Shown here piece by piece: positions 3,723 to 19,906 of a DNA stretch of 64,000 nucleotides (positions are counted from its first letter, which is position 1; every line of letters starts with the position of its first letter). The notes under the pieces are model-generated. The model was not told where the DNA came from and did no database searches. It saw only the letters and a list, made by a program, of their open reading frames with translations. Where the stretch lies: positions 62,001 through 126,000 of the forward strand of contig NZ_CADIJR010000007.1 of the NCBI RefSeq assembly GCF_902859645.1, read 5' to 3'. A program made the translations under genes and the position numbers. Source of the DNA: Achromobacter insuavis. Lineage in GTDB: Bacteria; Pseudomonadota; Gammaproteobacteria; Burkholderiales; Burkholderiaceae_B.

Positions 3723-4931
3723 ATGGATTACATCCTCTCCTTCATTGCCGGCGGTCTGACCCAAGCGACTTGGTGGCAGGTCGTCGTTTTCACCCTGGTC
3801 GTGACGCACATCACGATCGTGTCCGTTACCGTCTTCCTGCACCGCAGCCAGGCGCACCGGGGCCTGGATCTGCATCCGGCCGTGATGCACTTCTTCCGGT
3901 TCTGGCTCTGGATGACGACCGGCATGGTCACCAAGGAATGGGTTGCCATCCACCGCAAGCACCACGCCAAGTGCGAAAAGGAAGGCGATCCCCATTCGCC
4001 CATCCTGTTCGGCATCTGGAAGGTGTTGTTCCGCGGCGCCGAGCTCTACCGCGAAGAATCCAACAACAAGGAAACCATGGCCAAGTTCGGCCACGGCACG
4101 CCTGACGACTGGCTCGAACGCAACGTCTACAGCAAGCACAGCCTGTGGGGCGTGCTGACCATGCTCGCCATCGACATCGCCCTGTTCGGCGCGATCGGCG
4201 TCACGGTGTGGGCGGTGCAGATGGCCTGGATTCCCTTCTGGGCGGCCGGCGTCGTCAACGGCATCGGCCACTACTGGGGTTACCGCAACTACAACAGCCC
4301 GGACACCAGCACCAACGTGTTCCCCTGGGGCATCGTGATCGGCGGCGAAGAGCTGCACAACAACCATCACGCCCACGGCACGTCGGCCAAGTTCTCGGCC
4401 AAGTGGTACGAATTCGACATCGGCTGGTGCTACATCAACATCCTGAAGTTCCTGGGCCTGGCCAAGATCAAGAAGGTCGCGCCCAAGCTCAAGCTGGATG
4501 ATTCCAAGACCGGCATCGACCTGCGCACGCTGCAGGGCGTGATCACGCACCGCTACGAAGTCATGGCCCGCTACGCGGACGTGATCAAGAGCGCCGCCCG
4601 CGAAGAACTCGCCAAGCTGAAGGCCTCGCGCCAGGACGGCAACGCCGATTGCGGCTGGAACAAGCTGCACAAGGTGCGCCGCGCCATCCACCGCAACGAG
4701 GACATCCTCCAGCCGGAACAGCTCGAAGCCGTGGACAAGGCCATCGCCCAGAACCAGTCGCTGTCGACGCTGGTGCAGATGCGCCGCGAACTCGGCCGTA
4801 TCTGGGAAAGCTCCAGCGCCAGCAGCGAACAGCTCCTCCATGACCTGCAGGCCTGGTGCCAGCGCGCCCAGCAAAGCGGCATCGCCGGGCTCGAGCAATT
4901 CGCTCAACGTCTGCGCCGCTACGCGGCATGA
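3723..4931 (+). CDS. Membrane fatty acid (acyl-CoA/acyl-lipid) desaturase
   Basis: A 402-aa integral membrane di-iron desaturase of the SCD/DesA type, introducing a double bond into membrane acyl chains with O2. All three histidine boxes are present: HRSQAHR (40-46), HRKHH (77-81) and HNNHH (212-216), plus the additional conserved His in GIGHYWGYRN (about 183). Hydrophobic segments lie around residues 15-38, 55-75 and 142-185. After about residue 260 comes a soluble, charged helical tail of about 140 residues. The stop overlaps the start of the helicase gene as ATGA (4928-4931), so the two are probably translationally coupled. Confidence 0.93.
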   Translation: MDYILSFIAGGLTQATWWQVVVFTLVVTHITIVSVTVFLHRSQAHRGLDLHPAVMHFFRFWLWMTTGMVTKEWVAIHRKHHAKCEKEGDPHSPILFGIWKVLFRGAELYREESNNKETMAKFGHGTPDDWLERNVYSKHSLWGVLTMLAIDIALFGAIGVTVWAVQMAWIPFWAAGVVNGIGHYWGYRNYNSPDTSTNVFPWGIVIGGEELHNNHHAHGTSAKFSAKWYEFDIGWCYINILKFLGLAKIKKVAPKLKLDDSKTGIDLRTLQGVITHRYEVMARYADVIKSAAREELAKLKASRQDGNADCGWNKLHKVRRAIHRNEDILQPEQLEAVDKAIAQNQSLSTLVQMRRELGRIWESSSASSEQLLHDLQAWCQRAQQSGIAGLEQFAQRLRRYAA

Positions 4932-7637: not shown

Positions 7638-9056
7638 CTACAAGGTCTTGAGGAACGCCAGCAGGGCGTCGATCTCGGCCGGGCTCAGGTCGAGCGGCTT
7701 GATGTGCTCCGACTTGCGTGGCGCATACGGGTCCGGGGGATCGGCCGGCGGCGCTTCGCGGCCCATGCCGGCGTTGTACATCCGCAGCAGCCCCCGCAGG
7801 TCCGGAAACAGGCCGTTGTGCATCCACGGGCCGGCCTGCGCCACGTTGCGCAGGCTGGGCGTGCGGAATTTACCCAGGTCGGCGGGGTCGCGCGTGGCCT
7901 CATAGCGCCCCAGGTCCTGGTTGCGGCGGCCGTAGAACGACAGGCCGATGTTGTGGAACTGGTGGTCGCTCAGCAGCGGGCCGTTGTGGCAATTCATGCA
8001 GCGCGCCTGGGTGCGGAACAGGTGCAGGCCCAGCAGCTCGGTGTCGTCCAGCGCATCGGCGCGGCCCGACAGGAAATCGTCGAAGCGTGTTTTCTCCGGC
8101 CGCAGCGAGGCCACGTAGGCGGCCAGCGCGCGCGCCAGGCGGTCGGCGTCGACTGCGGATGTCGGTGTCGATGCCGCTGGCGCCTGAGCCACCGGTGTCG
8201 TAGCTGCCGTTGCCGATACTGTCGAGGCGGCCGCTGATGAAGCCGATGCAACCGTTGAAGAAGACGCTGCCGGCGCGCCGCCGAACGCCTCGAGGAAGCG
8301 CGCGGGATACATGTCGTTCTCCCGCAACCGAGTCACCGCCCCGACAGCGTCATGGTTCATTTCCCGCGGGTCGTGCAGCGGTCCTATCACCTGTTCCTTG
8401 AGGCTGGCCGCTCGGCCGTCCCAGAACAGGCGCGGCGCGAAGGGCGCGGCATACAGCGGCGTGGAGCGGCGTCGCCCCATCAGCTTGTCCTCTCCCACCG
8501 CCAGCGGCAGGCCGTCGGTGAAGGCGCGTTGCGGCTGGTGACAGGAGGCGCAGGAGACCTGGCCCTTGCGCGACAGGCGGGTGTCGAAGAACAGCATCTG
8601 TCCGAGCGTCACGACCGCCGGCCTGGCCACGTCGGCGGCCAGTTGCGTTTGGCCGGCATTCGCGGCGGTCCATTGCAGCGGCGGGCTGGAAGCCGGCGGG
8701 ACGGCTGCCCATTCGATCCAGTGCACGCCGGCGTCGATCGTGGGTGCGGGCCATCCGGCGGCGGGGCCGGCATAGCGCGCACGCAGACAGGCGAGGTCCC
8801 AGCCCGCCTGCGCGTGGCAGGCGGGCGCATCGGCGACGGCGGGGGGATCGGCCTGGCCGGCGGCGGTGGCTGTATCGGCCAGCGCCAGGACGGCGCTAGA
8901 AGGGGCGGCACCGGGATCGGCGGCGCAAAGAAGCGGGGCGCAAAGAAAGGAGGCGCAAAGGAAAGAGGCGCGAAGATAGGAGGCGCCAAGACGGGAGGCG
9001 CCAAGAGGGACGGCCAGGGCGCCCGTCCGGGGCCTGGCGCTGCCACGCAGGGGCAT
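7638..9056 (-). CDS. MauG/CcpA-like di-heme cytochrome c peroxidase family protein
   Basis: A 472-aa exported di-heme protein. Two heme-binding motifs are visible, CASCH (169-173) and CMNCH (353-357), together with the family blocks LFFDTRLSRKG, LFWDGRA, MYPARFLEAFG and KFRTPSLRNVA. It is periplasmic and would reduce peroxide or oxidise a partner protein. The N-terminus is a signal peptide whose hydrophobic core is a pentapeptide repeat. A roughly 40-residue Ala/Ser/Thr/Pro-rich stretch (about residues 254-296) sits between the two heme domains, as a probable flexible insert. The reading frame extends to 9125, but that would start upstream of the ECF-type promoter at 9091-9117. The ATG at 9056, preceded by GGAA, is therefore preferred. 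Confidence 0.88.
   Translation of the reverse strand: MPLRGSARPRTGALAVPLGASRLGASYLRASFLCASFLCAPLLCAADPGAAPSSAVLALADTATAAGQADPPAVADAPACHAQAGWDLACLRARYAGPAAGWPAPTIDAGVHWIEWAAVPPASSPPLQWTAANAGQTQLAADVARPAVVTLGQMLFFDTRLSRKGQVSCASCHQPQRAFTDGLPLAVGEDKLMGRRRSTPLYAAPFAPRLFWDGRAASLKEQVIGPLHDPREMNHDAVGAVTRLRENDMYPARFLEAFGGAPAASSSTVASASSAAASTVSATAATTPVAQAPAASTPTSAVDADRLARALAAYVASLRPEKTRFDDFLSGRADALDDTELLGLHLFRTQARCMNCHNGPLLSDHQFHNIGLSFYGRRNQDLGRYEATRDPADLGKFRTPSLRNVAQAGPWMHNGLFPDLRGLLRMYNAGMGREAPPADPPDPYAPRKSEHIKPLDLSPAEIDALLAFLKTL
8924..9013 (-). repeat. Six 15-bp tandem repeats in the peroxidase signal peptide
   Basis: Six consecutive 15-bp units (8924, 8939, 8954, 8969, 8984, 8999) follow the pattern CGCnAAGnnnGGnGG on the plus strand. 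On the coding strand each gives five residues of the form A-S/P-x-L-x, so the hydrophobic core of the signal peptide is itself a repeat array. Confidence 0.85.
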
Positions 9057-9090
9057 GGATACGTTCCGGGTTGCGTTGATGTCAGACGTA

Positions 9091-9117
9091 GGACGCAACG
9101 ACGGTGGCGATACCTCA
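9091..9117 (-). promoter_or_regulatory. ECF-type promoter element of the di-heme peroxidase gene
   Basis: Read on the minus strand: TGAGG (9117-9113), 17 bp, CGTCC (9095-9091), then 5 bp and CTGAC. The same layout precedes all three TonB transducer genes. The CGTCC block lies 34 bp before the ATG at 9056. Assignment to the local sigma factor is inference from the conservation. Confidence 0.75.
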
Positions 9118-9184
9118 GTGCCCAAGCGATGAATAATCTATATGGCTTTCGGCCTGTCGATTGGGCGCTGAGGCGCGAGCGGCC

Positions 9185-9847
9185 TCAGGCATCGAGAATA
9201 TGGAATGCGCCGTCCGGATCGCGTGCGACGATGGCCCGTTTTTCTTCCTGGGAGAGCAGCGGTTCCAGGATGTAGTCGATGTAGGCCACGCCATCGGGCG
9301 CCAGCTTGATGCAGCCCGCGCTGTCCGCCTCGACGCGGTAGCCGGTGTAGGCGTTGGCGTTGATCACCAGCGCGCCGGGGTAGGGATCGGGGTGGGTGGC
9401 GGTCAATGCCCGCGTCTTGTCGTTGACCTCTTTGCGGTAGCGTTCCAGGGCCACGTCCTTGGGCAATGGGATGCTGCCGCGGCCGCCGTGGTGCATGATG
9501 AAGACGAATTCCCCCAGCGACATGTCGTCGGGGATATGGCGATTGGTGGCGGGGCTGGTGTACCAGGACACGTAGCGCGCCAAGTCGTTGTAGAAGGCGG
9601 CGGTCTGGTTGGACGGATCGTCCTTGCTGCCCAGCGTGTAGTGATGCTCGCGCCAGGCCTCGTTGGTGTACTGGAACAGTCCGGATGCGGTCGAACTGGG
9701 ACTGGCGCTGTGCGAGGCGGCGCCGAACGATGATTCGAGGTAAGCGACGTCCGCCGCGATCTGGATGGTCGGGGCGTTGACGCCATGCCGCCTGCCGTGG
9801 GCCACGATGGCGGCTTTGATTCTGGTTTGGGCTCGGTTCAATGCCAT
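9185..9847 (-). CDS. Lysozyme/transglycosylase-fold protein without signal peptide
   Basis: A 220-aa protein. Residues about 30-70 (YLESSFGAAS, then ASGLFQYTNEAW) match the SLT/lysozyme-superfamily pattern with a catalytic Glu. The C-terminal half (NANAYTGYRVEAD, GCIKLAPDG) is not recognised. Starting at the ATG at 9847, with AGGAG upstream at good spacing, gives no signal peptide or membrane segment; the frame runs on to 9940 but adds only an Arg/Pro-rich piece. It sits between the peroxidase and the first TonB gene in the same orientation. I see no TGAGG-N17-CGTCC element in front of it. A peptidoglycan-cleaving enzyme is the best guess; export route unknown. Confidence 0.6.
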   Translation of the reverse strand: MALNRAQTRIKAAIVAHGRRHGVNAPTIQIAADVAYLESSFGAASHSASPSSTASGLFQYTNEAWREHHYTLGSKDDPSNQTAAFYNDLARYVSWYTSPATNRHIPDDMSLGEFVFIMHHGGRGSIPLPKDVALERYRKEVNDKTRALTATHPDPYPGALVINANAYTGYRVEADSAGCIKLAPDGVAYIDYILEPLLSQEEKRAIVARDPDGAFHILDA

Positions 9848-9978
9848 GCGCGTGCTCCTGCGTGGTGGCGCGGCCCGCGGGTTCCAGCGGCGAGGCTGAT
9901 ACGCCATGGCCGGGATGGCCACGAAGCATGGTAGGGACAAGGCCGCCGGCGCTCCATGGTGTCTGGTCTGATTTGCGG

Positions 9979-12597
9979 TCAGAAGCGGTAGCCGACCTGG
10001 AGCCAGAGTTCGCGGCCGGATTGATAGGTGGCGTTGTTGCTTGCCAGCGTGGGATTACCGGCCACGATCGCGGGCATGCGGTTGAGCAGATTGAGGATGT
10101 CGATGGTCAGTTCGAGCCTGGGCATGACGGGGGGCTGCCACGAGAGCCGGGTGTCCCAGGTCCAGTACGAGGGCAGGCCGCCGGATTGATAGCGATCGAG
10201 GAAGGACGGGCCCGGGCCTCTGCCGACATAGATGATGTCGTCGCGCCTGCCGCGCCAGTTCAGCGTATGGGTCCAGGTCAGTCCGGCGCGTGGATAGACG
10301 CCGGTCAGCGTGAGCGCGGCCAATTGGGGCTGGTGGAAACTTCGCGGCGGCAGGTCGATGGTGCGGATGGGTGCGCCGTTGTAGATCACCCTGTCGTTGG
10401 GGCCGCGCGCGTTGTCGTCATAACCCTTGGCCAGGTCGGTGTTGGTCTTGCGCTTCTGCCAGCTCCATGAGACCTGCAGGTGCCAACGGGTCGGACCGGC
10501 TCGCCAGGGTTCCAGCGTGCGTAGCGTCAGGCTGACGGCGTCGGTCGTGGAGTTGCCGCCGTTGCGGTAGGTGAAACCGGTGTTGATCTTGCCGCTCTTG
10601 ATCCACTGCCGCCGGCCGTCGCGGCGGACATAGCCCAGCAGGCCTTCCAGGCCCGCCATGCGTTGGCGCAGCGAGAATGCCCATTCGTCGTCATAGGGCA
10701 TGCGCAGCCCGCTGTAGTCCACGGCAAAATCCTGTTTGCCGGCGGGCACGGGATTGCCGCGGAAGTCGGTCAACTGTTGCAGCAGGCGCAGGCGCCGGGC
10801 TTCCAGGGCGGTTTCCAGCACGGCGCCGCCGAAGTAGCGGGACCATCCTCCGCTCAGCACGGTGGCGCCTGATCCGAGCACATCCCAATCCAGGCGCGTG
10901 CGCGGCGCGACACTGTGGCTGCCGAACAGGCTCTCGTGGTCATAGCGCAGCCCGGCATCCAGCGCCAGGCGCCGCCACTCGACGCGATCAGAGAGATACA
11001 GCGCCGCCGTCTGGCTGCGCGCCCGCACCGTTCCCGGCCGCCACAGGTACCTATTGCTGTCTGTGTAGCCGCCCGTGCTGCCGTAGGTGCGCGTGTAGGC
11101 GGTCGATAGCTTCGGCCGCTTGAAGGCCGCGTCGATCCGCTGCGCGTCGATGCCCGCGTAGACGTTGTGCGTGAATGCCCGGGCGCGTAGCGGATCCAGA
11201 TCGATCCGCCCCTTGAGCAGCACGGTGTCCTGCTGTTTTTGTTCCCGGCCGAAGCCGCCCTTGAAGTACACGGGCAGCCTGTAGGGGCGTGTCGTCACCC
11301 ATTCGCGGCTCGTCGAACGGCGGTTGCTCATGGCATGGTCCCAGCCGGCCTGCAGGGTCAGGCGCGCCGCCGGCAATCGGTGTTCCAGGCGGGCGGCCAG
11401 GCCATACGCGCCATGGTTGTTGGCGTATTGCGTGTCGCGGGCCGTGTTGCTGGTCAGCGCTTCGCTGCGATCGCTGTATTTCAGCGTCAGATCGACCAGG
11501 GTGTCGGCGTCGGGGCGCACGCTGAACTTGCCCAGGAAGTTGTCGATGCGGTCGCGATAGTTGTTCGGCGTGCGCAGCGACTTGCCTGCGTCATCCGCGC
11601 TCAGGCCCCAGCGCGCTATCCGGGATTGCCGATGCGACATGGCCAGCACCATGCCCGCCTTGTCGTTGACGGCAATGTCCGCCACCACCGAGTAGAAGCG
11701 CTTTTGCCATCGAGGCGTGAAGCCCGGCTCGCCTTGGGTCCATTTGTTCTCCTGGCCCGGCGAGACGCGCTGGCGAGTCATGTTCGAGGTGTTCCACCGA
11801 TAGTCGAACTTCAGGTGGTTCTCGCCGGAAAAGCGGCGCAGGCGTGCGTCCACCACGCCGCCATTGAATCGTCCGTATTCCACCGGCACGAAACTGTCGT
11901 GCACGTGCACGGCTTCCAGCAGGCTGGCGTCGATGAAATACGACTGTGGATTGCTGGGGACATTGCCGCCTACCTGGGCCAGGTTCTTGTTGGCCGGATC
12001 GACGCGGTTGGTGGCATCGATGCCATCGATCTGGAACAGGTTCTGGTAGGGACTGGCGCCGTAGAAGGAAATGTCCTCGACATCGAGCGAACCGCGATTC
12101 TGCGCGCCGTGGGCGCCGGGGTTGGTGCGCACCGCGGGATGCGTCGCTACCAAGGTGCTCAGATCTCGGTTGGACGAGGGTGTCGTGGCGATCTCCTGGC
12201 GGCTGTAGACGCGTTCGCCAAGCTGTTCGCCATAGACCCGCACGGGATCGAGCCGCGAGGTGTGGGTCGGGTCTGGCTGGTCGACGTAGATGAGGTAGCG
12301 GTTCGCGCCCTCCGCGCGCAATGCCAGGCCGGAGCCTTCCAGCATCTGGTCGAGCGCCAACCGGGCGGGAAACCTGCCGCGCACGACGGGAGAGACTTTG
12401 CCCGCAACCGCTGCGGGCGGGAACGATATCTCCAGGCCGGATTGACGGCCCAGCTCGATCAGCGCGTCGCCCAGGGGGAGAGCGGGGATGCATAGACGGA
12501 CGGCATCGTTCAACGGCTGGCTGGCCGCGGGAGCGGCCAAGGCCAGCAGGAAGCAAAGCAGCAGCGTCGATGCTCGGGGGAGGGAATGGCGGGGCAT
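9979..12597 (-). CDS. TonB-dependent transducer with N-terminal STN signalling domain (paralogue 1)
   Basis: An 872-aa outer-membrane receptor. A signal peptide (about 1-26) is followed by a secretin/TonB short N-terminal (STN) domain (about 38-105), the hallmark of receptors that signal to a FecR-type anti-sigma factor. A short PVRVYGE stretch, which may serve as the TonB box, leads into the plug (from about residue 130, with SLDVEDISFYGASP and NLFQIDGIDATNRVD) and a 22-strand-type barrel ending in the aromatic LQVGYRF needed for BAM insertion. It is closely similar along its whole length to the two proteins encoded upstream. Substrate unknown. It has its own ECF-type promoter element at 12632-12658. 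Confidence 0.88.
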   Translation of the reverse strand: MPRHSLPRASTLLLCFLLALAAPAASQPLNDAVRLCIPALPLGDALIELGRQSGLEISFPPAAVAGKVSPVVRGRFPARLALDQMLEGSGLALRAEGANRYLIYVDQPDPTHTSRLDPVRVYGEQLGERVYSRQEIATTPSSNRDLSTLVATHPAVRTNPGAHGAQNRGSLDVEDISFYGASPYQNLFQIDGIDATNRVDPANKNLAQVGGNVPSNPQSYFIDASLLEAVHVHDSFVPVEYGRFNGGVVDARLRRFSGENHLKFDYRWNTSNMTRQRVSPGQENKWTQGEPGFTPRWQKRFYSVVADIAVNDKAGMVLAMSHRQSRIARWGLSADDAGKSLRTPNNYRDRIDNFLGKFSVRPDADTLVDLTLKYSDRSEALTSNTARDTQYANNHGAYGLAARLEHRLPAARLTLQAGWDHAMSNRRSTSREWVTTRPYRLPVYFKGGFGREQKQQDTVLLKGRIDLDPLRARAFTHNVYAGIDAQRIDAAFKRPKLSTAYTRTYGSTGGYTDSNRYLWRPGTVRARSQTAALYLSDRVEWRRLALDAGLRYDHESLFGSHSVAPRTRLDWDVLGSGATVLSGGWSRYFGGAVLETALEARRLRLLQQLTDFRGNPVPAGKQDFAVDYSGLRMPYDDEWAFSLRQRMAGLEGLLGYVRRDGRRQWIKSGKINTGFTYRNGGNSTTDAVSLTLRTLEPWRAGPTRWHLQVSWSWQKRKTNTDLAKGYDDNARGPNDRVIYNGAPIRTIDLPPRSFHQPQLAALTLTGVYPRAGLTWTHTLNWRGRRDDIIYVGRGPGPSFLDRYQSGGLPSYWTWDTRLSWQPPVMPRLELTIDILNLLNRMPAIVAGNPTLASNNATYQSGRELWLQVGYRF

Positions 12598-12631
12598 GAG
12601 GGCGTCCTTGAGGCCGTTGTCGTCAGCAGTG

Positions 12632-12658
12632 GGACGCGGGGGGCGGGGGGATGCCTCA
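12632..12658 (-). promoter_or_regulatory. ECF-type promoter element of TonB transducer 1
   Basis: On the minus strand: TGAGG (12658-12654), 17 bp (C-rich), CGTCC (12636-12632), then 5 bp and CTGAC. The CGTCC block ends 34 bp before the ATG. Spacing is identical to the three other copies in the locus. Confidence 0.75.
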
Positions 12659-12703
12659 GTGTGGAAAGGGGGGATGCATGCGTCATGCCGTCTTATTCCC
12701 GCA

Positions 12704-15343
12704 TCAGAAGCGGTAGCCGACCTGGAGCCAGAGTTCGCGGCCGGATTGGAAAGTATTGGGCGTGGTCTTTCCTCTTGGGTTGGTCGCGGTGAGCGCGGGC
12801 ATGCGGTTCAGCAGGTTCAGCACCTCGATCGCGAATTCCATGCTGGGCACGGCAGTGGGCTGCCAGGTGAGCTTGGTATCCCAGGTCCAGTACGAGGGCA
12901 GGCCGCCGGATTTGAAGCGGTCGAGGTATTCCGGCTTGGGTCCCCGGCCTTCATAGATCGTGGCATCGCGCCTGCCGCGCCAGTTCAGCATGTTGCTCCA
13001 GGTGAGGCCCATGCGCGGATAGGCGCCGATCAGGGTGAGCGCGGCGACCTGGGGTTGGTAGAAACTGGTGGGCGGCAGGTCGATCGCGCGGATCTCGGCG
13101 CCGTTGTAGATCACGCGGTCGTCGGGATCGCGCGCATCGCCGTCATAGCCCTTGAGCAGGTCGTTGTTGGTCTTGCGCTTTTGCCATCCCCAGGTGGCCA
13201 GCAGGTTCCAGCGGGTCTTGCCGACGCGCCACGGCTCCAGCGTGCTGAGTGCCAGGGTGACGCTGTCAGTGGTGGATCGGCCGTCATTGGTGTACCGGTA
13301 ACTGCCAATGCCGGTGCTGCGCTTGGTCCACTGGTCCCGGCCGTTGCGGTGCACATAGCTCAGCTGGCCTTCCAGCCCGGCCAGACGCTGGCGCAGCGAA
13401 ACCGCCCATTCGTCGTCATGGGGCAGCCGCAATCCGTCGTAATCCACCCTATAGGGCTTGGCGCCATCGTCAACGGGATTGCCCTTGCCGTCGATCTCCA
13501 GGCGGCTCAGGCGATGGCGTTCGGCTTCCAGGGCGGTTTCAAGCACCTCGGCGCCGTAGTAACGCGACCATCCCGCGCTCAGGAGGGTGCCGCCGGCGCC
13601 GAACAGGTCCCAATCCAGGCGGGTGCGCGGCGACACGTTGTGGGTGCCGAGGAAGCTCTCCTGGTCATATCGCAGGCCAGCATCCAGGGCCAACCTGCGC
13701 CATTCGATGCGATCGGACAGGTACAGGCTTGCCATGTGGTACCTGACATTGACGGTGCCGGGCAGGTTGTGGCTCTTGTTGCTGTCCCGGTAGGCGCCGG
13801 CGCCGTTGTAGGTGCGCTTGTAGGAATAGGAATCCCGCAAGCGCTCGAACCCGGCGGTTATCTGGTTCAGATCGACGCCGGCATAGGAGGTATGCGTGAA
13901 CGCGCCGGTGTTCCACGGATCCAGGTCGATGCGGCCTTTGAGGGTATAGCTGTCCTGCCGCGTCTGTTCCTTGCCGAAGCCGCCCGTGGTGTATTTCGGC
14001 AGCTTGTACACCACGTGGGTGACGAATTCGTTGTCGACCGATTGGCGGTTGCTGCTGGCACGGTCCCAGCCTGCCTGCAACGTCAATCGTCCGCCTTGCA
14101 ATTGCCGCTCCAGATTGCCGTTGAGGCCATAGGCGCTATGGTTGTTGTCCCAGTGCGTGTCGCGGAAGGTATTGCTGGCCAGCCTTTCGCTGCGGTCGCT
14201 GTACTTCAACGTCAGGTCGGCCGTGGTATCAGCGCTGGCCAGCACGCTGAATTTGCCCAGGAAATTGTCGATGCGGTCACGATAGGTGTTCTGGGTAGCC
14301 AGGGGCTGCTCGCCCTTGTCGTCCGCGCCCATGATCCAGCGAGTGATGTCGGATTGCCGATGCGACAGGGCGAGCACCACACCAGACTTGTCGTTGAAAG
14401 CGATATCGCCCACGGCCGAGTAAAAGCGTTTCGTCCACGCTGGCGAGTATCCAGGGCTGCCTTGCGCCCATTTGGTTTCTTCTCCTTGAGCGACCTGCTG
14501 TCGGGTCATGTTCGAGGTGTTCCAGCGGTAATCGAATTGCAGGTGGTTCTGGCCGGAGAAGCGGCGCAGGCGCGCATCGACCACGCCGCCCGTGAAGCGG
14601 CCGTACTCGACCGGCACGAAGCTGTCGTACACCCGGACCTGGTCGATCAGGTGGGTGTCGATGAAGTACGACTGCGGATTGCTGGGCACGTTGCCAATCT
14701 GCAGGTTCAGGTTGCGGCTGGCCGGGTCCACCCGGTTGGTGGCGTCCGTGCCGTCGATCTGGAACAGATTCTGGTAGGGGCTGGCGCCATGAAATGAAAT
14801 TCTTTCCACGTCGAGCGAGCCTCGGTTTTGTGAACTGGCCGCGCCCGGATCGGTACGCACCGCCGGATGCGTCGCCACCAGCGTGCTCAGATCGCGATTG
14901 GACGAGGGCGTCGCGGCGATTTCCTCGCGGCTATAGATGCGTTCGCCGGTCTGCTCGCCGTAGACCCGGACCGGCTCCAGCCGCGACGCCGAGAATGGCG
15001 TGGCCTTGTCGGCGAAGACGATGTAGCGCCGCGGCCCATCGGCGTGCAGCGCCAGGCCGGAGCCGGCCAGCAGGCGGTTCAACGCCAGCAGCGCCGAATA
15101 CTCGCCTTGCAGGGCGGGCGAGACCTTGCCGGCGACGGCGGCCGGCGGGAAGGAGATTTCCAGGCCGGCCTGGCGGCCGAGCGCCAGCAGCGCGTCACCG
15201 AGCGCTTGGGCGGGAATGTCGTAGACGTGGGCGAGCGGGGCGCGCTGGGCCGCTGACGGCGCGGCCCAGGTCAGCGCCGTGCAGACGGCTGTGGCCCAGG
15301 CGCCGTAGCGGCGCCGGGACGAAGGAGTAAAGGAGAAAAGCAT
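12704..15343 (-). CDS. TonB-dependent transducer with N-terminal STN signalling domain (paralogue 2)
   Basis: An 879-aa paralogue with the same order of parts: signal peptide, STN domain (LGDALLALGRQAGLEISFP region), PVRVYGEQTGE linker, plug with SLDVERISFHGASP, and a barrel ending in LQVGYRF. Within the plug, residues such as NGA/GTDATNRVDPA are nearly identical to the neighbouring copies, while several barrel loops differ, as expected if ligand specificity has drifted after duplication. It is preceded by the ECF-type element at 15377-15403 and by AGAGG as ribosome binding site. The gap to paralogue 1 (107 bp) is taken up by that gene's promoter. Confidence 0.88.
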   Translation of the reverse strand: MLFSFTPSSRRRYGAWATAVCTALTWAAPSAAQRAPLAHVYDIPAQALGDALLALGRQAGLEISFPPAAVAGKVSPALQGEYSALLALNRLLAGSGLALHADGPRRYIVFADKATPFSASRLEPVRVYGEQTGERIYSREEIAATPSSNRDLSTLVATHPAVRTDPGAASSQNRGSLDVERISFHGASPYQNLFQIDGTDATNRVDPASRNLNLQIGNVPSNPQSYFIDTHLIDQVRVYDSFVPVEYGRFTGGVVDARLRRFSGQNHLQFDYRWNTSNMTRQQVAQGEETKWAQGSPGYSPAWTKRFYSAVGDIAFNDKSGVVLALSHRQSDITRWIMGADDKGEQPLATQNTYRDRIDNFLGKFSVLASADTTADLTLKYSDRSERLASNTFRDTHWDNNHSAYGLNGNLERQLQGGRLTLQAGWDRASSNRQSVDNEFVTHVVYKLPKYTTGGFGKEQTRQDSYTLKGRIDLDPWNTGAFTHTSYAGVDLNQITAGFERLRDSYSYKRTYNGAGAYRDSNKSHNLPGTVNVRYHMASLYLSDRIEWRRLALDAGLRYDQESFLGTHNVSPRTRLDWDLFGAGGTLLSAGWSRYYGAEVLETALEAERHRLSRLEIDGKGNPVDDGAKPYRVDYDGLRLPHDDEWAVSLRQRLAGLEGQLSYVHRNGRDQWTKRSTGIGSYRYTNDGRSTTDSVTLALSTLEPWRVGKTRWNLLATWGWQKRKTNNDLLKGYDGDARDPDDRVIYNGAEIRAIDLPPTSFYQPQVAALTLIGAYPRMGLTWSNMLNWRGRRDATIYEGRGPKPEYLDRFKSGGLPSYWTWDTKLTWQPTAVPSMEFAIEVLNLLNRMPALTATNPRGKTTPNTFQSGRELWLQVGYRF

Positions 15344-15376
15344 GGGGCGCCTCTGGCTGTTTTGAATTCAGCCAGA

Positions 15377-15403
15377 GGACGCGCCGGGCGGCGGCAGACC
15401 TCA
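15377..15403 (-). promoter_or_regulatory. ECF-type promoter element of TonB transducer 2
   Basis: On the minus strand: TGAGG (15403-15399), 17 bp, CGTCC (15381-15377), then 5 bp and CTGAA. The CGTCC block ends 33 bp before the ATG at 15343. Confidence 0.75.
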
Positions 15404-15470
15404 GCGCCCGGACGGCGAAAACCCTGCATGCACCTGCAAGTTCAGACCAAGGGAAGGGGCGGGCGCCGCT

Positions 15471-18101
15471 TCAGAACCGATACCCCACCTGCAACCACAG
15501 CTCGCGTCCCGACTGGAACGTGCTGCGGTTGGTCTTCAGGTTGGGATTGCTGGCCGTGACCGCCGGCATGCGGTTCAGCAGGTTCAGCACTTCCACCGTG
15601 AATTCCAGGTTGCGCGCGAAGGTCGGCTGCCACGCCAGCTTGGTGTCCCAGGTCCAGTACGACGGCAGCTCGCCGGATTCGTAGCGGTCCAGGTAATCCG
15701 GCCGCGGACCGACGCCGACGTGGATGGTGGCGTCGCGCTTGCTGCGCCAGTTCAGTTTGTTGCTCCAGGTCAGGCCGGCGCGCGGGTAGGCGCCGATCAG
15801 CGTGAGCGTAGCGACCTGGGGCTGGTAGAAGGTGCTGGGCGGCAGGTCGATGGCGCGGATCTCCGAGCCGTTGTAGATCACCCGGTCATCCGGATCGCGC
15901 GCATCGGCCGTGTAGCCGGTGACCAGGTCGCCGTTGGTCTTACGCTTCTGCCAGCTCCACGATGCCTGCATGTTCCAGCGCGTCGGACCCAGGCGCCAGG
16001 GTTCCAGCGTGCGCAGCGTCAGGCTGACGCCGTCGGTGGTGGAAAAGCCGTCGTTGTTGTAGGTGTAGCCCGTGGCCTGCGTGCCGCTCTTGGTCCATTG
16101 GTCGCGGCCATTGCGGTGCACGTAGCTCAGCAGGCCCTCGATGCCCGCCATGCGCTGGCGCAGCGAGACCGCCCATTCGTCGTCGTAGGGCATGCGCAGG
16201 CCGCGGTAGTCCACGAAGTATTCCTTGCCGCCGTCGGTCACGGGCCTTCCCTTGCTGTCGAGCACCTGCCGGCGCAGGCGGCTGCGCTCGGCTTCCAGCG
16301 CGGTTTCCAGCACCTCGCTGCCGTAGTAGCGCGACCAGCCCGCGCTCAGCAGCGTGTCGCCCGAGCCCAGCACGTCCCATTCCAGGCGCGTGCGCGGCGA
16401 CAGGTTGGTGTTGCCCAGGAAGGTCTCGCGGTCGTAGCGCACGCCCGCATCCAGCGCCAGCCGTTGCCATTCGATGCGGTCGGACAGGTACACGCTGGCC
16501 ATGTTGTATTTCACGTTGACCGTGCCGGGCAGGTAGTGGACCTTGCTGAAGTCCTGGTAGGTGCCCTTGTTGTTGTAGGCGCGGCGGAACGAATACGAAT
16601 CCTGGAAGCGCTTGAAGCCGGCGTCGATCTGCTGCAGGTCGGCGCCCGCGTACAGGCTGTGGGTGAAGATGCCGGTGCGCACGGGATCGAGATCGATGCG
16701 GCCCTTGAGGGTCCAGGTGTCCTGCCGCGTCTGCTCCTTGCCGAAGCCGCCCGCGGTGTATTGCGGCAGCCTGTAGGGTTGATAGGTCACCAGTTCATCG
16801 CCGACCGACTGGCGATCGCTGGTGGCATGGTCCCAGCCGGCCTGCAGCGAGACGCGGCCGCCCTGGAACAGGTGGTCCAGGTTGCCGCTCAGGCCGTAGG
16901 CGCCGTGGTTGTTGTCCCAGTGCGTGTCGCGGAACAGGTAGCTCGACAAGGTCTCGCTGCGGTCGCTGTACTTGAGCGTCAGGTCGGCGGTGGTGTCGGC
17001 GCTGGCGCGCACGCTGAACTTGCCCAGGAAGTTGTCGACGCGGTCGCGGTAGGTGTCCTGGCCCTGTTGCGGCTGGCCCTTGTCGTCCACCCCCATGTTC
17101 CAGCGCGTGATGTCGGATTCGCGGCGCGACATGGCCAGCACCACGCCGGATTTGTCGTTGAAGGCGAAATCGCCCACGGCCGAATAGAAGCGCTTCTTCC
17201 ATTCGGGCGAATAGCCGGGCTGGCCCTGCGCCCAGCTGTTCTCCTCGCCCTCGGACACCTGCTGTTGCGTCATCTTCGAGGTGTTCCAGCGGTAGTCGAA
17301 CTTCAGGTGGTTCTCGCCGGAGAAGCGACGCAGGCGCGCATCGACCACGCCGCCGGTGAAGCGGCCGTATTCGACCGGCACGAAGCTGTCGTACACGCGC
17401 ACCGCCTCCAGCAGGCTGGTGTCGACGAAGTACGACTGCGGGTTGCTGGGGACGTTGCCGACCTGCAGGTTGAGGTTCTTGCTGGCCGGGTCGACGCGGT
17501 TGGTGGCGTCGATGCCGTCGATCTGGAACAGGTTCTGGTAGGGGCTGGAGCCGTGGAAGGAGATGTCTTCGACGTTGAGCGAGCCGCGGTTCTGCGAGCC
17601 GCTGACGCCCGGGTTGGTGCGCACCGCCGGGTGGCTGGCCACGAGCGTGCTCAGGTCGCGGTTGGACGACGGCGTTTCGGCGATCTCTTCCTGGCTGTAG
17701 ATGCGTTCGCCGGCCTGCTCGCCGTAGACCCGCACCGGCTCCAGCCGAGAGGTGGAGAAGGGATGGGTCTTGTCGACGAAGACGATGTAGCGGCCCGGGC
17801 CGTCGGCGCGCAGGGCCAGGCCGGAACCGGCCAGCAGGCGGTCCAGCGCCAGCAGGGCGGAATACTCGCCTTGCAGGGCGGGCGATACCTTGCCGGCCAC
17901 GGCGGCTGGCGGGAACGAGATCTCCAGGCCCGATTGGCGGCCGAGCGCGAGCAGGGCGTCGCCCAGCGCCTGCGACGGAATGTCATACACAATGGTGCGC
18001 GCGGGCGGCTGGGCGATGACGGGCGCGGCAATGGCCAGCATGACGCAAAGAAGGGCGGCCGAGGCGCTGGGCCGGCGTTTGCGGTCAAGAGGGAAAGGCA
18101 T
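15471..18101 (-). CDS. TonB-dependent transducer with N-terminal STN signalling domain (paralogue 3)
   Basis: An 876-aa paralogue, nearest to the regulator genes. It has a signal peptide, STN domain, PVRVYGEQAGE linker, plug (SLNVEDISFHGSSP, NLFQIDGIDATNRVD) and a barrel ending in LQVGYRF. Its codon use looks more uniformly GC-rich than that of paralogues 1 and 2. It is preceded by the ECF-type element at 18136-18162. The stretch beyond that element also matches the peroxidase upstream region, including a GATGAATAAT block at the same distance. It is probably the original receptor for the FecR homologue encoded next to it; that order of events is inference. Confidence 0.88.
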   Translation of the reverse strand: MPFPLDRKRRPSASAALLCVMLAIAAPVIAQPPARTIVYDIPSQALGDALLALGRQSGLEISFPPAAVAGKVSPALQGEYSALLALDRLLAGSGLALRADGPGRYIVFVDKTHPFSTSRLEPVRVYGEQAGERIYSQEEIAETPSSNRDLSTLVASHPAVRTNPGVSGSQNRGSLNVEDISFHGSSPYQNLFQIDGIDATNRVDPASKNLNLQVGNVPSNPQSYFVDTSLLEAVRVYDSFVPVEYGRFTGGVVDARLRRFSGENHLKFDYRWNTSKMTQQQVSEGEENSWAQGQPGYSPEWKKRFYSAVGDFAFNDKSGVVLAMSRRESDITRWNMGVDDKGQPQQGQDTYRDRVDNFLGKFSVRASADTTADLTLKYSDRSETLSSYLFRDTHWDNNHGAYGLSGNLDHLFQGGRVSLQAGWDHATSDRQSVGDELVTYQPYRLPQYTAGGFGKEQTRQDTWTLKGRIDLDPVRTGIFTHSLYAGADLQQIDAGFKRFQDSYSFRRAYNNKGTYQDFSKVHYLPGTVNVKYNMASVYLSDRIEWQRLALDAGVRYDRETFLGNTNLSPRTRLEWDVLGSGDTLLSAGWSRYYGSEVLETALEAERSRLRRQVLDSKGRPVTDGGKEYFVDYRGLRMPYDDEWAVSLRQRMAGIEGLLSYVHRNGRDQWTKSGTQATGYTYNNDGFSTTDGVSLTLRTLEPWRLGPTRWNMQASWSWQKRKTNGDLVTGYTADARDPDDRVIYNGSEIRAIDLPPSTFYQPQVATLTLIGAYPRAGLTWSNKLNWRSKRDATIHVGVGPRPDYLDRYESGELPSYWTWDTKLAWQPTFARNLEFTVEVLNLLNRMPAVTASNPNLKTNRSTFQSGRELWLQVGYRF

Positions 18102-18135
18102 GAAAACGTCCTACGCTGTGTTGATGTCAGCCGTA

Positions 18136-18162
18136 GGACGCGGCGTAGGACGCAACCCCTCA
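18136..18162 (-). promoter_or_regulatory. ECF-type promoter element of TonB transducer 3
   Basis: On the minus strand: TGAGG (18162-18158), 17 bp, CGTCC (18140-18136), then 5 bp and CTGAC. A second CGTCC occurs inside the spacer, but only the downstream one has the shared spacing. The CGTCC block ends 34 bp before the ATG at 18101. Confidence 0.75.
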
Positions 18163-18364
18163 TTGCAAAGTTGATGAATAATTTATATTGATTCTTATTT
18201 ACTGATTGAGAATCCCAGCGGAAGACGGCGAGCGCAGTCCGGGATATCGCGAGTAGCGGGGAGCGTGAAAGGGCGGCGTCGCGGGAAGCTGATGCGCCTG
18301 AGGTGCAGGCGATGCCCGGCCATGCGGATCGCGCCGAACCCGCCAGCCCTGCAAGAGAAATCCC

Positions 18365-19297
18365 TCAGCGCAGGATCAGCAGGCCGGGCAGATCGGTGAT
18401 GCCGACCTTGGTCTGCGCCAGCAGCAGGTCGAGCGCGCGCTTGGGATCGGCGATGCTCGCCGTGCCGGACACGCGGGTGCCGCGCGCCAGTGCGCCCAGC
18501 ACCAGGATGCGCTTGCCGGTGTAGCGCGCCAGCTGCGCGGCGGCGTCGGGCAGCGCGGTGTCGTTGAAGGCCAGCAGTCCCTGGCTCCAGGCGGGGGCGG
18601 TTTCGCGCGGCGCCGGGTCGCGGATCATGCCGCCGGCCGAGACCGTGATGCGTTGCCCCGGTTCGAGGATCTGTGGCTGCCCGTCGGCGCAGGCCTGGCA
18701 TTGCACCGCCACCTGATGCTGGTAGACGGTGACGCGGGTCGCATCGGCATCGCGGGCGACCGCGTAGCGCGTGCCCAGCGCCGTGGCGTTGGCGTCCGCG
18801 GTGACGACCGTGAAGGCGGGGCCATCGGCGCCGCGGGGCGTCGCCTCGAACAGGGCCTGGCCGGCCAGCAGGCGCACTTCGCGCTTGCCCGCTCCGAAGT
18901 CCACGGCGATGGCCGAATGCGCGTCGAGGATAGCGCGCGAGCCGTCGGGCAGGGCGACGCGCAGCGGCTGCGTGCCGCTGGCGTAGTCGGCGCCCGGCTG
19001 GAAGTCGCGCAGGGTATAGGCGGCCATGCCCGCCGCCGTGACCAGCGCCAGGGTCAGTAGCGCGCGGCGTTTGCGCGGCGCACGGACGGCCAGCTTGCCG
19101 CGGTCGATCTCGCCCATGCGGCGCCAGACGCGCGCCAGGCGGTCGTAGGCGGCGGCATGGCGGGGATCGGCGTGGTACCAGGTGTCGAATTCGGCCTGTG
19201 TCTGCGCGTCCAGCGGCTGGCCGCCGTGGCGGATGACCCAGCGCGAGGCCTGTTCGTCGGCGGCCGTGGCGTTGCCGTGGGCGGCGGCCTTGTTCAC
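18365..19297 (-). CDS. FecR-type anti-sigma factor / sigma regulator
   Basis: A 310-aa single-pass inner-membrane protein. Residues about 17-60 form the FecR N-terminal cytoplasmic domain (ASRWVIRHGG, FDTWYHADPRHAAAYDR). A transmembrane helix follows at about 83-101. Then come the periplasmic FecR domain (about 120-215, with GSRAILDAHSAI and ALGTRYAV) and a C-terminal STN-like region (FNDTALPDAAAQLARYTGK) that contacts the receptor STN domain. It starts with GTG, overlapping the sigma factor stop as GTGA (19294-19297), so the pair is coupled. It transmits ligand occupancy of a TonB transducer to the ECF factor. Confidence 0.93.
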   Translation of the reverse strand: MNKAAAHGNATAADEQASRWVIRHGGQPLDAQTQAEFDTWYHADPRHAAAYDRLARVWRRMGEIDRGKLAVRAPRKRRALLTLALVTAAGMAAYTLRDFQPGADYASGTQPLRVALPDGSRAILDAHSAIAVDFGAGKREVRLLAGQALFEATPRGADGPAFTVVTADANATALGTRYAVARDADATRVTVYQHQVAVQCQACADGQPQILEPGQRITVSAGGMIRDPAPRETAPAWSQGLLAFNDTALPDAAAQLARYTGKRILVLGALARGTRVSGTASIADPKRALDLLLAQTKVGITDLPGLLILR

Positions 19298-19782
19298 GCG
19301 GTCAGGGCCTGGTCGCAGGCCAGCAGGATGCGCATCATGTGCTTTTCGACCGCGCTGACCGAGATGGCGAAGCGTTCGGCGATGGCGCGGTAGGTCAGGC
19401 CTTCGTGGCGATGCAGGACGAATACGTCGAGGCTGCGGCGCGGCTGGCGCAGCAGGGCGGCTTCGAGCCGGCGCAGCAACTGGTTGGCCGAGGCGACCTC
19501 CAGCGTGTCGGCCTCGAAGGCCGGCGGCTGCGCGGCGGCGTAGTCGGCGACCGCGCCCATTTCACGGCCGCGCCGGCGATGCCAGTCGGTGGCGATGTTG
19601 GCCGCCACCCGGAAGACATAGGCGCGGTCGTTGTCCGGAAGGGTCCTGTCCTTGAACTCGGCCAGCTTGATCCACGTGTCCTGGGCGCAGTCCTGGGCCA
19701 CGTCGCGCGAGCCGGTGCGCATGGCCAGGAAGCCCAGCACTTCGCGGTAGTGCCGGAGAAATACATCGGTAAGCGAAGACAT
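19294..19782 (-). CDS. FecI-like ECF sigma factor
   Basis: A 162-aa extracytoplasmic-function sigma factor of the iron-starvation group. Region 2 (FLRHYREVLGFLAMRTGSRDVAQDC and DRAYVFRVAANIATDWHRR) and region 4 (RHEGLTYRAIAERFAISVSAVEKHM) are both complete. It is the first gene of the sigma/anti-sigma pair and is preceded by a Fur-box-like sequence. Its likely targets are the four TGAGG-N17-CGTCC elements downstream. I see no such element before the sigma gene itself, so auto-activation is not indicated. Confidence 0.93.
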   Translation of the reverse strand: MSSLTDVFLRHYREVLGFLAMRTGSRDVAQDCAQDTWIKLAEFKDRTLPDNDRAYVFRVAANIATDWHRRRGREMGAVADYAAAQPPAFEADTLEVASANQLLRRLEAALLRQPRRSLDVFVLHRHEGLTYRAIAERFAISVSAVEKHMMRILLACDQALTA

Positions 19783-19827: not shown

Positions 19828-19846
19828 ATAAATGATAATTATTATT
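19828..19846 (-). promoter_or_regulatory. Fur-box-like sequence upstream of the ECF sigma factor
   Basis: An AT-rich stretch in an otherwise GC-rich region. The plus-strand core AATGATAATTATTATT matches 14 of the last 16 positions of the 19-bp Fur consensus; the first three positions do not match. It lies about 46 bp before the sigma ATG, a usual place for Fur repression. Confidence 0.7.
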
Positions 19847-19906
19847 GTTAATGCGTGTTTCACTGTCGCGGGAAAGCGCGGACGGCGCGCGCCGTCCGCA
19901 CGTCGA

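Follow-up and report, generated by a model that had tools for sequence, protein, structure and literature searches.

To our knowledge, few FecI-like extracytoplasmic function (ECF) sigma factors have a known promoter. In the FecI/FecR/FecA system of Escherichia coli, the sigma factor, its regulator and an STN-domain transporter are encoded in a row, and the ECF sigma factor reads the transporter promoter (PMC9249621). The iron-starvation promoters of PvdS and FpvI conform to TAAAT-N16-CGT (PMC2235872). On the transporter side, a survey covering Fus-related clusters such as YddB-PqqL and FusA-FusC describes an Achromobacter/Bordetella transporter cluster near YddB, without a homologue of FusC (FusC and PqqL being M16 proteases) and often accompanied by a cytochrome c peroxidase; such peroxidases, it is proposed there, may reduce the imported protein so that its iron cofactor is released (PMC6793856). 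The genes treated here fit this cluster. They lie in a 64,000-nucleotide stretch of Achromobacter insuavis (NCBI RefSeq assembly GCF_902859645.1, contig NZ_CADIJR010000007.1, positions 62,001 to 126,000 of the forward strand; the window), where the element TGAGG-N17-CGTCC stands before three transporter genes and a di-heme peroxidase gene. The relevant passages of the survey hold no promoter description, and the single match to 'sigma' in its text is a reagent supplier (PMC6793856).

The four elements are very probably the -35 and -10 boxes of a FecI-like ECF sigma factor encoded just upstream of them (19294-19782), and there is strong reason to regard the locus as a self-contained cell-surface-signalling unit with TGAGG-N17-CGTCC promoters. 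On the minus strand, from upstream to downstream, the locus encodes the ECF sigma factor, a FecR-like protein, three TonB-dependent transporters (TBDTs), a transglycosylase-like protein and the di-heme peroxidase:

19294-19782, minus strand: FecI-like ECF sigma gene, 162 amino acids, with region-4 helix ISVSAVEKHMMRIL; Pfam Sigma70_r2 and Sigma70_r4_2, and NCBIfam sigma70-ECF above cut-off
18365-19297, minus strand: FecR-like sigma regulator gene adjoining the sigma gene, 310 amino acids; Pfam FecR and DUF4880
15471-18101, minus strand: TBDT3, TonB-dependent transporter/transducer with STN and plug domains, YddB/FusA-like
12704-15343, minus strand: TBDT2, TonB-dependent transporter with STN and plug domains
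9979-12597, minus strand: TBDT1, TonB-dependent transporter with STN and plug domains
9185-9847, minus strand: transglycosylase/lysozyme-like protein, weak PHROG transglycosylase match (1.4e-4)
7638-9056, minus strand: di-heme cytochrome c peroxidase / MauG-MbnH family gene, CCP_MauG match (9.5e-44)

The elements are placed as follows:

18136-18162, minus strand: putative TBDT3 promoter, exact pattern match, with -35 TGAGG at 18162-18158, N17 and -10 CGTCC at 18140-18136
15377-15403, minus strand: putative TBDT2 promoter, exact pattern match
12632-12658, minus strand: putative TBDT1 promoter, exact pattern match
9091-9117, minus strand: putative di-heme peroxidase promoter, exact match, found likewise in all six three-transporter loci, the window's included

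As in fec, a sigma factor, a FecR-like regulator and an STN-domain transporter follow one another; unlike fec, the transporter is YddB/FusA-like, three transporter copies and a peroxidase each have their own putative promoter, the -35 is TGAGG, and a hairpin may form in the leader (PMC9249621). The elements share with PvdS and FpvI promoters the CGT-type -10 and the iron-starvation logic, but not the TAAAT-N16-CGT box, having TGAGG as -35 and a spacer of 17 (PMC2235872).

An initial annotation of the window had reported the four elements with exact 17-bp spacing, and a pattern search confirms them at the same coordinates, all on the minus strand: four exact copies occur against 0.21 expected, the largest count in 100 shuffles being two. 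Allowing one mismatch brings the number of matches to chance level (7 against 6.4 expected). The CTGAC/CTGAA block noted 5 bp past CGTCC is likewise present in all four, and the distance from the end of the element to the ATG is 33-34 bp at all four genes (ATGs at 9056 for the peroxidase and 12597, 15343 and 18101 for the transporters). When the search was extended to the whole 6.82-Mb genome and to related genomes, the A. insuavis genome yielded five exact matches, compared with 20 for the pattern read backwards; four are those of the locus, and the fifth is most likely due to chance, since it lies across the start codon of a LysR-like open reading frame (ORF).

In a sample of 43 Achromobacter genomes, a sigma orthologue (defined by at least 82% identity) and the transporter family are present in the same 27. 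Among these, for which 26 orthologous loci were fetched beside that of the window (a paralogous locus, L062, being excluded), the exact element precedes the first transporter in 27/27 genomes, and it stands before all 39 transporters and all six separately promoted peroxidase genes. These 45 sites leave out an exact match inside the sigma gene of one genome (G007; locus L044, oriented position 1602). The gene order is sigma-fecR-element-transporter-peroxidase in 21 genomes, and six genomes, that of the window included, have three transporters and a peroxidase with its own element. This co-occurrence supports the suggestion of the initial annotation that the local FecI-like factor is the reader.

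The regulon appears to be confined to the locus. The bare pattern gives 180 matches in the 27 sigma-positive genomes, 45 of them at the locus, and 69 in the 16 sigma-negative genomes, two of which are <80% complete; outside the locus this amounts to ~5.0 matches per sigma-positive genome against 4.3 per sigma-negative genome. Matches unrelated to TonB or peroxidase genes are thus at background level, which gives no sign of further targets and makes the bare pattern weak by itself. Extended by four conserved positions, the pattern matches 47 sites in the 43 genomes, of which 45 belong to the locus; this count shows specificity rather than independent sensitivity because the extra positions were picked from the same 45 sites. 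One of the two off-locus matches falls in a sigma-negative genome and the other elsewhere in a sigma-positive genome, and the reversed control of the extended pattern has 15 matches anywhere. The regulon, described as local at the outset, therefore looks strictly local, and the sigma factor apparently reads these promoters and no other in the genome. FecI-like sigma factors are numerous, with 43 matches to this one in the A. insuavis genome alone. Of the 42 loci of other FecI-like sigma factors listed there, 40 were fetched, several being truncated at contig ends, and fecR could be placed in 35 of 41 sigma rows; TGAGG-N17-CGTC follows fecR in none of the 40. Direct reading of these paralogue promoters is too rough for deriving motifs, and the count records simply whether the pattern is there or not. 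A search of plasmids for the sigma factor gave no match at 60% identity or above.

Conservation extends beyond Achromobacter. A family search at E<=1e-40 recovers 41 sigma places in 39 of 268 genomes, and TGAGG-N17-CGTC follows 37 of them: 27 in Achromobacter, three in Bordetella, one in Allopusillimonas and six in Alcaligenes, with an N16 spacer in Bordetella genomosp. 1. The same pattern is found in one Azoarcus and two Zoogloea records. The remaining four sigma places form a sister group with TAGGG-N17-CGTCT, whose recognition helix differs from that of the TGAGG group by K in place of S (S143 of the window's sigma factor) and T in place of M150. A Burkholderia record with the K but with M retained has TAGGG-N17-CGTCG when read by eye, a site that the scripted scan did not detect. 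As far as searched, the joint difference of -35 and recognition helix between this sister group and the TGAGG group appears to be new; a literature search turned up no paper that mentions TGAGG along with FecI and sigma factor, motifs given solely as figures being out of its reach. At the sister loci L115, L118, L119 and L062, the TAGGG-N17-CGTCT site stands before a different type of transporter, of which only the N-terminal part matches TBDT3.

More distant relatives in Pseudomonas and Azotobacter (34-38% identity) have the same EKHMMR helix and TGAGG-N17-CGTGTA in 42 of 48 loci; having been collected through that helix, this set cannot prove that the helix sets the -35. In raw rows, 98 have an S[AT][VI]EKHMMR helix and 87 of these TGAGG-N17-CGT, doubled loci included; apparent double fetches (L107/L136, L108/L145, L109/L137, L110/L139, L111/L142, L116/L143 and L059/L146) are otherwise counted once. 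The initial annotation regarded the TGAGG -35 as unusual, which holds with respect to the TAAAT type, but the box is not peculiar to this sigma factor. At one Pseudomonas locus (L150), the gene behind TGAGG-N17-CGTGTA encodes a FoxA/FhuA-like siderophore receptor, and several Pseudomonas leaders contain a small inverted repeat, GCGA...TCGC, seen by eye. The Azoarcus locus (L138) has a second TGAGG-N17-CGTCT on the sigma strand (4539-4565), ~1.2 kb before a peroxidase homologue match that lies upstream of the sigma gene.

Iron control of the unit is suggested by a Fur-box-like site before the sigma gene, and AT-rich blocks adjoin two of the promoter elements:

19834-19852, minus strand: Fur-box-like 19-mer before the sigma gene, 14/19 to the Fur consensus
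18173-18202, minus strand: conserved AT-rich block immediately before the TBDT3 -35, matching the Fur box in part (13/19)
9128-9144, minus strand: AT-rich stretch preceding the putative peroxidase promoter, similar to the last part of the TBDT3 block

The 19-mer before the sigma gene scores 12-16/19 across the 27 loci and occupies nearly the same place in the 26 orthologous loci. The AT-rich block is conserved before the first transporter of the Achromobacter loci, where it ends ~10 bp before TGAGG and scores 12-13/19, and it is absent before TBDT1 and TBDT2; as background, 45 of 3000 150-bp windows from the same loci reach at least 13. The layout resembles that of the E. coli fec genes, in which Fur sites lie in the fecI -10 region and the fecA -35 region (PMC9249621).

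The computation directly shows that the element exists with exact spacing, accompanies the sigma gene, is local and is conserved in several genera; recognition by the sigma factor has to be weighed against other explanations of these results. Because TBDT1-3 are paralogues (identity to TBDT3 is 76% for TBDT2 and 67% for TBDT1), the transporter genes themselves are duplicated even though the spacers have diverged, and the elements could be functionless remnants of a recent duplication of one intergenic region. The initial annotation had argued from the differing spacers that this is not plain duplication, and for the elements this holds: among within-genome copies, both pentamers are 100% identical, against 44% for the spacer, 39% for upstream DNA, 46% for downstream DNA and 79% for CTGA (36 non-independent pairs from six multi-copy genomes, every row found by the exact pattern). 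Since single-transporter loci have the exact element too, and it is found again in other genera, the remnant explanation retains almost no probability. It is also very unlikely that the elements are binding sites of another regulator or act at the RNA level, the true promoter being an upstream TATAAA-like AT-rich block. Such a block is indeed conserved before the first transporter, and a sigma-70-like match (9160-9133) precedes the peroxidase element; however, the block is missing before TBDT1 and TBDT2, none of the three transporters is preceded by a sigma-70-like match in the scan, a constant 17-bp spacing with a CGTC -10 is in keeping with ECF promoters, and in the sister group the -35 changes along with the sigma region-4 helix.

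Several observations nevertheless weigh against recognition by the local sigma factor. The TGAGG -35 is not specific by itself, because the distant Pseudomonas/Azotobacter sigma factors have it too and TGAGG with a different -10 occurs near or after the fecR end in six of the 40 own-genome paralogue loci. Under rough gene calls, the expected site is missing from six of the 48 loci of Pseudomonas and Azotobacter, and TGAGG-N17-CGT from three still more distant ones that share this helix (L186, L197 and L198). The bare pattern recurs as background about five times per genome, the Fur-box matches reach just 12-16/19, and the sigma-70-like match at 9160-9133, one of four in the scanned region against 1.4 expected, overlaps the AT-rich stretch before the peroxidase element.

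With the elements taken as promoters of the local sigma factor, iron shortage would cause Fur to release the sigma-fecR operon and the first transporter promoter. Binding of substrate to an STN-domain YddB/FusA-like transporter would then be signalled via the FecR-like protein to the sigma factor, which would direct RNA polymerase to the promoters of the transporters and the di-heme peroxidase.

A further proposal, which would supplement the promoter reading and not replace it, concerns the leaders of the transporter genes. Their Shine-Dalgarno stretch, GGACG or GGAC ahead of the ATG, can base-pair with CGTCC of the -10, often in a longer stem; in TBDT2, CCTCTGGCTG pairs with CAGCCAGAGG. The predicted structures in the window are:

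18107-18140, minus strand: predicted TBDT3 leader hairpin, CGTCC arm with GGACG; -17.4 kcal/mol, z -5.1
15348-15381, minus strand: predicted TBDT2 leader hairpin; -20.0 kcal/mol, z -5.6
12603-12636, minus strand: predicted TBDT1 leader hairpin, weak; -9.7 kcal/mol, z -1.1, alone not significant

CGTCC may thus serve both as -10 and as the 5' arm of a hairpin masking the transporter Shine-Dalgarno stretch in read-through mRNA, whereas sigma-driven RNA, starting inside this arm, would escape; the case for this falls just short of evenly balanced. The proposal has a precedent in gene e of phage T4, where an inhibitory helix, whose 5' strand is encoded by the late promoters, forms only in longer transcripts (PMC3014915). 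As in T4, promoter-proximal DNA would here encode the 5' helix strand that hides the Shine-Dalgarno stretch only in longer transcripts; the T4 case is experimentally shown, while the hairpin here is predicted, bacterial and within an ECF promoter (PMC3014915). Read-through into the transporter genes is plausible because a simple scan finds no terminator-like site on the minus strand between 7500 and 20000 (on the plus strand there are nine matches, near the chance mean of 7.1).

Since leaders of other ORFs fold as low as many of the hairpin leaders (-11.3 kcal/mol on average for 194 ORFs, many probably spurious), the hairpin is judged by shuffle z-scores and arm swaps only. Eighteen of 25 distinct Achromobacter transporter leaders beat their shuffles (P<0.05, z to -8.2), unlike both of the distinct peroxidase leaders (z 0.1 and 0.8); the other seven transporter leaders, TBDT1 of the window included, are not significant alone. 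Across 28 leaders, own arms are more stable than swapped arms (-16.6 against -15.0), a difference reached in 0 of 20,000 permutations, which overstate significance as the sequences are related; with one leader for each of the seven distinct 5' arms, the mean P is 0.009. In-register pairing holds in 87% of cells, compared with 29-53% when the arms are slid, but column covariation is not significant (44 of 500 shuffles reach the score and 243 of 500 the paired percentage). GGAC occurs in the last 16 nt of 35/39 transporter leaders, 0/6 peroxidase leaders and 11 of 246 other long ORFs, a set that includes spurious ones. In other genera, the -10 pairs with the Shine-Dalgarno stretch, partly in other letters, in leaders of Alcaligenes (all four folded, of six loci), Allopusillimonas and Azoarcus; on the other side, the hairpin is absent in Bordetella genomosp. 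1, weak in genomosp. 5, and shifted in B. trematum and Zoogloea. If RNA starts ~8 nt past CGTCC, which is an assumed site, little of the structure would survive (residual -5.6 to 0 kcal/mol).

The two observations may be combined, more tentatively, into a chromosomal class of ECF promoters in which the -10 doubles as a hairpin arm, so that importer genes would be translated only if the sigma factor had initiated their mRNA, while RNA reading through from the sigma-fecR operon or a neighbouring transporter would stay silent, with S143/K tracking the change from TGAGG to TAGGG as a specificity code; on the sequences compared, this is somewhat less probable than not. The possible hairpin sharing the -10 element is new as far as searched. 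Two spacers have features of their own. In that of TBDT3, GCGTCCTACG is present a second time; this tandem repeat of the -10 region might serve as an alternative arm of the hairpin. That of TBDT1 contains two C6 runs, at which slippage would alter the 17-bp spacing and could toggle the promoter on or off; they are absent from the last transporter promoter of another Achromobacter locus (L036), which also has a 2.4-kb gap between transporters (oriented 8537-10977) with no match to cluster genes.

The transporters are YddB/FusA-like and probably import proteins. Over plug and barrel, TBDT3 is related to the solved structures 6ofr (E 5e-117) and FusA, the ferredoxin receptor (4zgv; E 8e-50). Entry 6ofr is taken to be YddB from its 762-residue length and from YncD being a separate entry (6v81); an alternative identity as YncD/PqqU, with which uptake of pyrroloquinoline quinone (PQQ) was considered, is ruled out, as YncD is 6v81 and the PQQ transporter 9c4o. 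From this kinship to YddB and FusA, the substrate class is probably a small iron protein. The plug domain is above cut-off in all three transporters, and the STN domain lies around the Pfam cut-off of 28.4 bits (E 1.2e-6 to 2.5e-6; 28.6 bits for TBDT3, 28.3 and 27.6 for the other two); the N-terminus of TBDT3 also matches those of FpvA, FoxA and CntO. For the protein encoded at 9185-9847, neither a Pfam search nor a search of phage records and solved structures gave a match, and no signal peptide is visible by eye. Among the 26 other fetched loci, its homologues occur only in three-transporter loci, in four of five of those; its structure model is poor (mean pLDDT 52) and was not used.

At this locus, the sigma factor, its promoter and the whole regulon can apparently be read together, alongside sister sigma factors that differ in -35 and recognition helix jointly. 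The YddB/FusA-like importer and di-heme peroxidase cluster would thereby be tied to a surface-signalling switch of its own, a link which suggests that the importer genes are turned on by their own substrate under iron shortage. If the leader hairpin acts as predicted, a means of insulation known from phage T4 would have a counterpart in bacteria.

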